From the NCBI GenBank assembly GCA_002839765.1, contig PGYR01000020.1, forward strand, positions 1-42,304: DNA of 42,304 nucleotides, read 5' to 3'. This stretch comes from Ignavibacteriae bacterium HGW-Ignavibacteriae-4 (GTDB lineage Bacteria; Bacteroidota; Ignavibacteria; Kapaibacteriales; UBA2268). This document shows positions 17,322-20,400 of the stretch, piece after piece. The notes under the pieces were generated by a model. The model was not told the DNA's origin and did no database searches. It saw only the letters and a program-made list of their open reading frames with translations. The translations under genes and the position numbers were made by a program. Positions within the stretch are counted from its first letter, which is position 1; the number at the start of each line of letters is the position of its first letter.

Positions 17322-18380
17322 ATGAAATTTATAAATTTACTCTTTTTAACTGCGGTTATGCTTACGTTCAACGCTAAAGCAGAAGATTTATCGAAGTTAA
17401 TCAATGAAGATTACAAAGCATACAGCGATAGTTTGGAACATAATATAACATCATTCACTTATTTAGATGATGATGGTAGCTATAAGACTTACTTATTGAG
17501 TAGCCAAGAATCGGACAACAATAATCCAATTTTCCAAATAGGGAGTGTTTCAAAGCTATTCACAGCGCATGCTTTGAGTAATCTAGTTATCAACGGCGAT
17601 CTGAAATTGACAACTAAAGTGAAGGAAATACTTCCTTTCATAACTTTCAAAGATGAGAACATTGCTAATATAACATTGGAGCAGCTAGCTAACCATTCTT
17701 CGGGTTTACCTAGATTGCCAGTTAATATATTTGTTGGTATGACTGATTCTCTGCAACCATATCAGAATTATACTAAAACTATGCTATATAATTTCCTAGC
17801 TAACTACGAACTAGTAAGAGCTCCCGGAAAATCTTATGAGTATTCTAATCTTGGGTTTGGACTATTAGGGAATATATTAGATACTTATCTTGCAAAAAAC
17901 AAGAATACAACATTAGAGAAATACATTCAAAAAGAAATATTCGACAAAGCCGGAATGAAAGATACAGGTCTTGAGCTTACAGCTTCTCAAAAAGAGCGCG
18001 AAGTGCAGCCATATATTGAAAATTCACCAACTCCTGCTTGGGAATTCGATGTTATCAAATGGGCTGGAGCTTTTTATAGCACGACTCAGGATTTGGCGAA
18101 GTATTTGAATCAATTCGTGACTAAAACACCAGTATTCGACCAAAAAGTATTAGAACTTTCTCGTACTATCACATTTGAGCCAAATCCGAATATGCGCATG
18201 AGTTTGGGATGGCATATTACTCCTCTTGGTAGTAATACTGTTTATTGGCACAATGGAAATACTTATGGTAATTCTGCATTTATCGGTTTTACTTCTTCAG
18301 GTAAATTTGTGGCTGTACTATCTAATAGTAACAGGATACTTGACAGTTTCGCTGTTGATGTATTGAACAGTATGAAATAA
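17322..18380 (+). CDS. Exported serine hydrolase, class C beta-lactamase / PBP4*-like
   Basis: The protein has 352 residues with a signal peptide (MKFINLLFLTAVMLTFNAKA), placing it in the periplasm. It carries the serine beta-lactamase-like triad: SVSK near residue 84 (catalytic Ser and Lys), YSNLGFG near residue 183 (Tyr-x-Asn), and HNG (third motif, HxG form) near residue 310. This family includes D,D-peptidases, esterases and class C-type enzymes; nothing here shows antibiotic hydrolysis. It follows hutI by seven bases and ends before a strong terminator. Confidence 0.9.
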   Translation: MKFINLLFLTAVMLTFNAKAEDLSKLINEDYKAYSDSLEHNITSFTYLDDDGSYKTYLLSSQESDNNNPIFQIGSVSKLFTAHALSNLVINGDLKLTTKVKEILPFITFKDENIANITLEQLANHSSGLPRLPVNIFVGMTDSLQPYQNYTKTMLYNFLANYELVRAPGKSYEYSNLGFGLLGNILDTYLAKNKNTTLEKYIQKEIFDKAGMKDTGLELTASQKEREVQPYIENSPTPAWEFDVIKWAGAFYSTTQDLAKYLNQFVTKTPVFDQKVLELSRTITFEPNPNMRMSLGWHITPLGSNTVYWHNGNTYGNSAFIGFTSSGKFVAVLSNSNRILDSFAVDVLNSMK

Positions 18381-18404: not shown

Positions 18405-18443
18405 AAAAAATCTACATTTCCAAAGGGGAAAGTAGATTTTTTT
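18405..18443 (+). terminator. Rho-independent terminator
   Basis: AAAAAATCTAC, one bulged A, then TTTCC pairs across a short loop with GGAAAGTAGATTTTTT and runs into a T-tract. The stem is about 16 bp and lies 25 bases after the hydrolase stop. The A-run at its left end means it may also terminate minus-strand transcripts. It isolates the following ECF sigma unit from upstream readthrough. Confidence 0.85.
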
Positions 18444-18515
18444 GTATCTATACTATTAGTTTTATAATATTTATCATTATAATACTACTATAATTAGAGA
18501 AATTATCATTATTTT

Positions 18516-18543
18516 GTGACAAAACGGAAACATAACTGTTATT
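18516..18543 (+). promoter_or_regulatory. Putative autoregulatory ECF promoter, copy 2 (GTGACAAAA-N11-CTGTTATT)
   Basis: GTGACAAAA, 11 bases, then CTGTTATT, ending 12 bases before the sigma gene ATG. It matches copy 1 (2513-2540) in both blocks and in spacer length, and copy 3 (42160-42187) with one change in each block. Position directly before an ECF sigma gene fits autoregulation. The distance leaves a very short leader if the ATG at 18556 is used; the in-frame ATG at 18601 would give a normal one. Confidence 0.65.
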
Positions 18544-18555
18544 GTATTAAGAGCA

Positions 18556-19125
18556 ATGGGCAAAAATTATAAAGACATATCGGATACGGTGCTCTACTAT
18601 ATGCTGAAAGGTTCTAAATCAGAATCTAAGAAGGCGTTTGATGAGCTATATAGGAGACATTCTACGAATGTTTATACCTATTGTCGTAAAGTGTTAAATA
18701 ATGACCCATTGGCTGAAGATATATTCCAAGAGACGTTCACCCGGTTCTTTGAGGGAGCAAAAAAAGAGAGAGAAATGACCAATGTACTTGGATATCTCTT
18801 GAAAATAGCTAGAAATCTTTGCCTAAATGAAAAAGCAAAGAAGTATAATAACAAAGTCGCTTTAGAAGATTTGCATTTACCACAATATGATGTGAGTTAT
18901 GCTAATATACAACTAAATGAATTGTTACAGACTGCACTAGATGCTTTACCCAAAAAGTACCGAGAAGTAATTGTTCTGCGTGAGTACTTGGATATGTCAT
19001 ATAAAGAAATAGCTGAGGCAGTAGGAACTACTATGCCTGTAGTTCGTATAAGGATATACAGAGCCAAAGGTAGAATTAGAGACCTATTAGCACCTTATTT
19101 TGAAGAAATGAAAGATTATAATTAG
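18556..19125 (+). CDS. ECF-type RNA polymerase sigma factor
   Basis: A 189-residue sigma-70 family protein of extracytoplasmic-function size. Region 2 spans about residues 26-95, with AFDELYRRHS at its start and DPLAEDIFQETFTRFFEG as the conserved region 2.2-2.4 stretch. Region 4 spans about 125-182 (LPKKYREVIVLREYLDMSYK and AEAVGTTMPVVRIRIYRAK), the -35-binding helix-turn-helix. Start at 18556 gives a 15-residue N-terminal extension; ATG 18601 is an alternative. The next gene starts right after its stop and looks like its anti-sigma factor. The motif at 18516-18543 suggests it drives its own transcription. Confidence 0.95.
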   Translation: MGKNYKDISDTVLYYMLKGSKSESKKAFDELYRRHSTNVYTYCRKVLNNDPLAEDIFQETFTRFFEGAKKEREMTNVLGYLLKIARNLCLNEKAKKYNNKVALEDLHLPQYDVSYANIQLNELLQTALDALPKKYREVIVLREYLDMSYKEIAEAVGTTMPVVRIRIYRAKGRIRDLLAPYFEEMKDYN

Positions 19126-20400
19126 ATGAATATGGATAATACAAATATTACAACATCGGAAAAGCTACACCTAATCCTTGACGGGGAATCAGAAGGTATA
19201 GATACTGCAGAAGTACTAAACGAGGTTTCGAATAGCCCAGAGCTAACACAAGAGTTCACTGACCTTGTGAGAATGAAACAGATGATGAGAGGTGCCACTG
19301 AGGCTCCGCCTGAACATCTTCGCCGTGGTATAATGGCTGGGATTGGTCTTGGTGGAAGTGGATTATGGTACTACTTACAGAATAGTGGTATGGTCGCTGC
19401 TTCAGCAGCATTCGTATCTAGCAAAGTAGGTGCTGCACTAATAGCAGGTATGGTCGGCGTATTTGCTACTTTTATGATAATGGACAATAGTGATAAACCG
19501 AACACACTTGATTATACTACTCAAAGTATTACTAATAGCCAATACACAGAGCTAGCTAGTGCTATGCCAATAGTGATGGAAGTTCCGGTTGTATCATCAA
19601 AATCTAAAAATACAAATACACGAAATAGCTCAAGCCAAGTCACTCGTAGGTATAACGAGAACCAAAGCTCTGTTAATTCTAATACTAGTCAAGTGGCTAC
19701 AAATTCGGAAAGCACTATTGCAGAAAATAATTTCTTTGAAGTTAGTGAAAGTAAAAAGGCATATAATACAAATGAGAATGTGCAAATTCTACCCACTTCT
19801 TCAGAAAGCTTAGCTGCTAATCAGGAAATACTACCAAGTATTCAATCTGAAAGACCTAGTGGATTCATAATAAATCCGACTAATAGAATCATGAGCAACG
19901 AAACTGAACAGCAAATGCTTTTTAGTCTGCAAGGAAGAGGGATTTCTAATAATTCACTACAAGCTCCAAACCTTTCTACTACGGAAGCCCCAGCTATCAA
20001 TGATATTGGTATCGCTCTGATGTATTCTGTTAATGATGAATTCGAATTAGGATTAGAGTTTGGACAAGAATTTTTTGTGAAGAAAATTAAATCAAATACG
20101 TTCAATAGCGAAGAAACTATGCTCGAGAATCAACTTACATTTTGGGGTGGAGTAAGAGCGACATATAAGTTCAATGATATGCAAATACTAGACGGATTCA
20201 GACCAATGACCTCTATTCTAATAGGTGGTACTAATCGTGGTTGGGTGACTAGAGCATCTGCTGGATTAGTATATGATATATCTAATAAATTGACAGTATT
20301 CGGTGGCCCCGAGTGGACTTCTGGATTCTACCAATTCGACTCTAAGCTATTATCTACTCACAAGTGGGGATTCCAATACGGACTTGCTCTGAAATTCTAA
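19126..20400 (+). CDS. Putative dual membrane-spanning anti-sigma factor (cytoplasmic domain + TM helix + C-terminal outer-membrane barrel)
   Basis: A 424-residue protein starting at the base after the sigma stop. Residues 1-60 are polar with an anti-sigma-like LILDGES...LNEVSNSPELTQEF pattern. A hydrophobic inner-membrane helix lies at about 101-119. Residues 120-285 are a Ser/Asn/Thr/Gln-rich, low-complexity linker, long enough to cross the periplasm. Residues about 288-424 are alternating amphipathic strands (IGIALMYSV, FELGLEFGQEFF, ASAGLVYDI) ending in LALKF with the C-terminal Phe typical of BAM-folded barrels. No signal peptide. As I recall, this order matches dual membrane-spanning anti-sigma factors described in Bacteroides. 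That it restrains the adjacent sigma is inference from position and layout. Confidence 0.75.
   Translation: MNMDNTNITTSEKLHLILDGESEGIDTAEVLNEVSNSPELTQEFTDLVRMKQMMRGATEAPPEHLRRGIMAGIGLGGSGLWYYLQNSGMVAASAAFVSSKVGAALIAGMVGVFATFMIMDNSDKPNTLDYTTQSITNSQYTELASAMPIVMEVPVVSSKSKNTNTRNSSSQVTRRYNENQSSVNSNTSQVATNSESTIAENNFFEVSESKKAYNTNENVQILPTSSESLAANQEILPSIQSERPSGFIINPTNRIMSNETEQQMLFSLQGRGISNNSLQAPNLSTTEAPAINDIGIALMYSVNDEFELGLEFGQEFFVKKIKSNTFNSEETMLENQLTFWGGVRATYKFNDMQILDGFRPMTSILIGGTNRGWVTRASAGLVYDISNKLTVFGGPEWTSGFYQFDSKLLSTHKWGFQYGLALKF

Follow-up and report, generated by a model that had tools for sequence, protein, structure and literature searches.

A fused anti-sigma factor of Dma-type layout, probably anchored in both membranes, lies behind an ECF sigma factor gene

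The window, by which we mean the whole stretch of DNA that was analysed (42,304 nucleotides), is contig 96 of the 110 contigs of a 3.36-Mb genome, and it carries on its forward strand two open reading frames that abut with a gap of 0 nt. The upstream frame (18556 to 19125, + strand) encodes a protein of 189 amino acids that matches Sigma70_r4_2 (E=6.4e-16) and Sigma70_r2 (E=5.6e-12) above the cut-offs; among the 25 NCBIfam matches listed for it, only the sigma70-ECF superfamily exceeded its cut-off. Judged by these Pfam and NCBIfam profiles, the identity of the product as an ECF sigma factor is firm, in agreement with an earlier note on this DNA. The downstream frame (19126 to 20400, + strand), annotated from its open frame and its full-length relatives as the gene of a Dma-type anti-sigma factor, encodes 424 amino acids. 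The four parts that the earlier note had placed in it (an anti-sigma-like N-terminus, a membrane helix, a linker and a beta domain) do follow one another in a single unbroken frame behind the sigma factor gene. On its own, the 424-residue protein matched no Pfam or NCBIfam family at cut-off, and no RseA-type C-terminal periplasmic domain was found in it by Pfam at E≤1. Rfam gave no match at gathering score within the window. At 18405 to 18445, between a Beta-lactamase-family gene (17322 to 18380) and the sigma factor gene, lies a hairpin with a run of T, conserved in part, which looks like a terminator separating the two units.

Upstream of the sigma factor gene, we found a predicted ECF promoter, TTTTGTGACAAAA-N12-TGTTATT (18512 to 18543, + strand); a site with at most one mismatch precedes the orthologous operon in four of four genomes of the genus. 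Between the end of the predicted -10 box and the sigma start codon lie 12 nt (18537-18556). On the assumed start codon the message would have a leader of about five nucleotides, and would therefore be nearly leaderless, unless the true start lies further in. A motif scan located a second exact copy of TTGTGACAA-N14-TGTTATT (2513 to 2542, − strand) upstream of a predicted target gene (2 to 2398, − strand) for an IgGFc_binding protein (PF17517, E=6.8e-45) of 799 amino acids, truncated by the contig end. When up to two mismatches were allowed, the four genomes of the genus contained 14, 15, 14 and 16 sites, against 5, 2, 4 and 0 for the reversed pattern (59 versus 11 in total). Intergenic sites make up 43 of the 59, the other 16 falling inside open frames of at least 120 codons; 41 of the 43 stand within 120 nt of a possible start, defined as the first ATG, GTG or TTG opening at least 90 codons. 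Ahead of the sigma factor gene, the looser pattern TGNNAC-N14..19-TGTTA occurs in 7 of 48 family loci, a set that contains the window's locus but not its three near copies (L005-L007), compared with a mean of 0.25 in shuffled sequences. The possibility of a housekeeping promoter was rejected, the window's genome holding 4 exact sites and 14 within two mismatches (5 for the reversed pattern).

The gene clusters that stand behind a site in all four genomes are the sigma-dma operon itself, a paralogous sigma operon (the L069 locus in the window's genome), IgGFc_binding proteins (nine genes, one being that at 2 to 2398), a CarboxypepD_reg lipoprotein, RlmN, and an FKBP-type isomerase that is, by eye, a lipoprotein; domains were taken from one member of each cluster in the window's genome, and from two for IgGFc_binding. 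A GSDH gene, sucC and one cluster with its sites inside a coding frame are preceded by the motif in two of the four. Each genome has two or three IgGFc_binding genes preceded by the motif, and two longer relatives in the genus (L154, L160) have a type IX secretion (T9SS) sorting tail. Of seven target genes, chosen non-randomly and taken at greater length, the six whose frame is complete were scanned for such tails, namely two IgGFc_binding genes, the lipoprotein and three without a counterpart among the clusters. A T9SS type A sorting domain exceeded the NCBIfam cut-off in five of the six, in three of these the Pfam cut-off as well; none was above cut-off in the CarboxypepD_reg lipoprotein scanned. 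The GSDH protein has a Por_Secre_tail above cut-off. Read against the at least 150 T9SS sorting domain matches in the genome, type IX tails are likely to be enriched among the predicted targets. The -35 box varies between the 43 intergenic sites (GTGACA in 17, GTAACA in 8, GTTACA in 6, GAAACA in 5), and variants other than GTGACA precede RlmN, the isomerase and the paralogous operon, three units that may be under other sigma factors. Because the box differs between groups, paralogous sigma factors may account for part of the targets.

In a protein search with the anti-sigma factor of the window, 54 of 60 genomes from genus to order level, its own among them, contained a match at E≤0.001. The family set comprised 84 loci, E. 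coli not counted, which yielded 69 distinct ORFs matching the family profile. Full-length proteins (at least 370 amino acids, with model positions 25 to 415 covered) numbered 51, among them the window protein and its three near copies, and 18 ORFs were dropped. Those dropped include two paralogues from the window's own genome with diverged C-termini (L069, L070) and the locus L014, which is divided between two ORFs. Three more of the dropped proteins, at class level (L072, L073, L076), are 442-480 amino acids long and extend to model positions 396-404; in another eleven ORFs, at class or phylum level, the match falls mainly within the N-terminal half. Both halves are fused in all 51 distinct full-length proteins, and an ECF sigma factor gene lies immediately upstream on the same strand in every case (median gap 14 nt, range -122 to 167), as it also does, directly upstream, for 14 of the 18 dropped ORFs. 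The homolog check proposed in the earlier note, which asked whether N-terminus and barrel co-occur behind ECF genes, was thereby answered positively, L014 alone being split. Since the window's genome has only 20 Sigma70_r2 matches, chance adjacency of a sigma factor gene would be rare; together with the conservation of both ends and the adjacency in 51 of 51, this indicates from sequence comparison that the fused, sigma-adjacent arrangement is more than chance. A fusion of two unrelated genes confined to the window's genome was rejected in view of the 51 fused proteins.

In the alignment of the 51 proteins, mean pairwise identity amounts to 32% over residues 1-75, 29% over the barrel and 11% over the tether. 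The family profile identified six sigma-dma-like loci in the window's genome, four of them full-length matches, and matches in 136 of the 395 genomes of a phylum sample. Among the matches listed, those outside the window's own order mostly cover the N-terminal part only, and many of them may therefore be ordinary anti-sigma factors. At one place (G000:C12:121798-126203; L067, L068), a stretch of about 5 kb contains a pair of sigma-dma operons in tail-to-tail orientation. The window anti-sigma factor has 18 matches in a 7.9-Mb genome of its own order (G050), which suggests that the family is greatly expanded there.

Residues 1-100 of the window protein (19126 to 19425, + strand) are predicted, from the matches of its relatives and the family profile, to form an RseA-like sigma-binding domain. 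At E≤0.1, the N-termini of the family matched RseA_N in 20 of 47 cases and zf-HC2 in 14 of 47; when full-length members served as the query, RseA_N was matched by 7 of 32, zf-HC2 by 3 and OMP_b-brl by 2. Against the PDB, the family profile matched the RseA chain 1or7_C (E=2.1e-4) and the anti-sigma factor DdvA (E=0.0042). The window N-terminus alone matched no Pfam family, RseA_N included, and it was through its relatives that the anti-sigma-like character claimed for it was borne out. The single helix that had been put at about 101-119 was recovered by hydropathy at residues 101-119 (19426 to 19482, + strand), with a Kyte-Doolittle mean of 2.21 over 19 residues; in 51 of 51 proteins, the most hydrophobic 19-residue stretch averages at least 1.44. 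Lysines and arginines flanking the helix favour an N-in orientation in 23 of the 51, oppose it in 16 and are tied in 12, thus lending it weak support.

Behind the helix, residues 120-263 (19483 to 19914, + strand; 144 amino acids) appear to form a polar periplasmic tether rich in Ser, Asn, Ala and Thr, a composition from which we judge it probably disordered. The linker of the earlier note is upheld, though the 51-protein alignment gives it 144 residues and not about 165. Its great length and disorder, which had been taken as distinctive, are not so, as Dma has already been described with a long intrinsically disordered tether (PMC13088901). Inspection of the alignment led us to choose the pattern P[ILVM][ILVTM][ST][ST], represented in the window protein by PVVSS (residues 154-158; 19585 to 19599, + strand), which begins 35 residues behind the helix. 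With L005-L007 excluded, 13 of 48 members have this pattern within 60 residues of the start of the tether (over 1000 shuffles, the mean was 0.38 and the maximum 3), and it occurs a single time in the rest of the tether; the exact box is absent from those first 60 residues in the other 35. The column of its proline is conserved in 80% of the 51 proteins. In E. coli RseA, DegS cleaves after Val148 (Val148|Ser149) according to PMC8098476, and the cleavage context reads KASPV|SLG. By its likeness to this site, the PVVSS box is a candidate site-1 cleavage site.

The window's genome also encodes proteases of the types that such cleavage would call for. Two Trypsin_2 matches correspond to HtrA-type proteins of 506 and 383 amino acids, the shorter of which has, by eye, one PDZ domain, as does DegS; two Peptidase_M50 matches include an RseP-like protein of 455 amino acids. 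As HtrA proteins were found in 12 of 14 control genomes and M50 proteins in 14 of 14, their presence proves little.

The C-terminal part, residues 264-424 (19915 to 20397, + strand), is predicted to be an outer-membrane beta-barrel from OMP_b-brl matches in relatives, a BAM beta-signal and alternation. It had been placed at residues 288-424 (about 137 residues); sequence evidence upholds the beta domain, whereas the alignment and its column pattern move the start to about 264. The domain thus measures 161 residues in the window protein, the family length being 160 (sd 2.4), and it probably has eight strands, on our reading of the alignment. OMP_b-brl was matched at E≤0.5 by 8 of 48 members (best 1.7e-5), and other barrel families at the same threshold by a few (OprF 2, PorP_SprF 2, MipA, Porin_4 and Omptin 1 each); the family barrels also match unrelated families. 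The window barrel alone did not match OMP_b-brl and gave weak unrelated matches far below cut-off, such as Kelch repeats (E=0.0032), and the best match of the barrel profile in the PDB was FapF at E=0.27. A beta-signal, defined by the consensus as quoted in PMC10945584, is present within the last 16 residues in 50 of 51 proteins (shuffled mean 5.5, maximum 15), and the final residue is Phe in 33 of 51. Hydropathy alternation in the barrel exceeded that of all 1000 shuffles, a non-specific result in that the N-terminal domain lay about two sd above its own shuffles, with more power at 170 degrees than at 100 degrees. AlphaFold models had low mean pLDDT values: 31.6 for the full protein with three relatives, showing nine strand elements from residue 265, and 28.0 for the last 175 residues with three relatives, showing five strands and a helix but no barrel; we take neither model as evidence.

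The domain order, the family matches, the gene order, the beta-signal and the promoter footprint can be read directly in the sequences. We consider that the locus as a whole is best explained by a two-membrane anti-sigma leash with regulated release of the sigma factor, and we hold this explanation with good confidence. Insertion into two membranes, sigma binding, a signal, proteolysis and a regulon are what we infer, and the functional steps are modelled on RseA (PMC10202637) and Dma (PMC13088901). The sigma factor would be retained in the cytoplasm by the RseA-like N-terminus. The protein would span the inner membrane with its one helix and the periplasm with an unstructured chain of about 144 residues, and BAM would fold its last 160 residues into an outer-membrane barrel, probably of eight strands. 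A trigger at the outer membrane (an unfolded barrel, a bound ligand or a pulled tether) would lead to cleavage of the tether; an HtrA protease would most likely make this cut, close to the Pro-Val-Val-Ser-Ser box, and an RseP-like protease a second one within the membrane. Once free, the sigma factor would transcribe the operon that encodes it, together with surface-protein genes, many of whose products are secreted by the type IX route.

We considered the possibility that ligand binding or mechanical pull is transmitted as such, without proteolysis. The periplasm is usually 20-30 nm across, and the contour length of the tether is about 52 nm in the window protein and 41 nm for the shortest member, so that the chain would be enough to cross it; this length would suit such a signal, as would the conserved charged residues of the barrel (E315, E396, R271, K413). 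Yet, no ligand site is visible in the sequence, and the kinship with RseA points to regulated proteolysis, which makes a signal of this kind possible but rather improbable. A more specific form of the two-membrane leash with regulated release would be an RseA to which an outer-membrane sensor is joined in cis: if the barrel did not assemble, or a jam arose at the outer membrane, the protein's own beta-signal would be exposed to the PDZ domain of an HtrA protease, the tether would be cut at P-V-V-S-S, and the sigma factor would tune the supply of type IX surface proteins. We regard this version as speculative and on balance unlikely; if it were true, one molecule would couple outer-membrane assembly and surface secretion.

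Alternatively, the tether might be cut constitutively, leaving a separate barrel and a short conventional anti-sigma factor with no physical link between them in the cell. The short box near the helix could then be a processing site. All 51 proteins, however, keep the fusion, with tethers of 114-190 residues (mean 139, sd 14, n=51) at about 11% pairwise identity, which suggests that the link is retained, and we think constitutive cleavage improbable. That the beta domain is a soluble periplasmic sensor of an RseA-like anti-sigma factor and never enters the outer membrane would fit the fact that neither a model nor a solved relative confirms a membrane barrel and that the window protein itself has no barrel match, but we judge it very improbable in view of the beta-signal in 50 of 51 proteins, the matches of relatives to OMP_b-brl and other barrel families, and a composition rich in Gly, Phe and Tyr. 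If the two-membrane link of the preferred explanation is real, this would be among the few routes from an outer-membrane protein to RNA polymerase without a diffusible messenger.

Compared with known systems, the protein resembles E. coli RseA in its N-terminal domain, by profile, and in the position of its helix (101-119 here, against 101-118 in RseA); the DegS cut lies about 30 residues behind the helix in RseA, and PVVSS starts 35 behind it here. RseA differs in having 216 residues and no barrel, and in the RseA/sigma-E system unfolded OMPs are sensed in trans via DegS (PMC10202637). Cell-surface signalling through FecR/FoxR likewise conveys the state of the outer membrane to an inner-membrane anti-sigma factor and on to an ECF sigma factor, but there receptor and anti-sigma factor are separate proteins (PMC11637429).

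The closest parallel is provided by Dma1 and Dma2 with Das1 and Das2 of Bacteroides thetaiotaomicron, for which PMC13088901 describes an anti-sigma N-terminus, a helix, a long disordered tether, a barrel and an adjacent ECF21 sigma gene; the mention in the earlier note of dual membrane-spanning anti-sigma factors in Bacteroides agrees with this published layout. The same paper states that the Dma family occurs solely among Bacteroidota. Two of the three nearest named genomes (L005, L007) are labelled as Ignavibacteriota/Ignavibacteriae MAGs, the third (L006) simply as a bacterium, in keeping with the earlier surmise of another lineage. NCBI treats Ignavibacteriota as a phylum within the Bacteroidota/Chlorobiota group; GTDB places Ignavibacteria inside Bacteroidota, so that whether the host range is widened depends on which taxonomy is followed. 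Among the papers listed in the literature searches, which were short of most subscription titles, none named a Dma protein in Ignavibacteria, and we did not find the lineage, the promoter, the predicted regulon or the tether box described there; these, and the six matching loci in one genome, appear to be new here. This analysis carries the Dma layout to genomes filed under Ignavibacteriota, where the family is multi-copy, corrects the domain borders, and adds a promoter, a predicted regulon and a candidate cleavage box. Having the same four-part layout as Dma2 and an adjacent ECF sigma factor gene, the window protein is by its sequence layout a Dma-type factor. Unlike Dma, it belongs to a lineage outside NCBI Bacteroidota, and the targets predicted here are surface proteins, in many cases with type IX secretion, whereas the effects recorded for B. 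thetaiotaomicron Dma in PMC13088901 are on vesicle production and polysaccharide utilisation loci.
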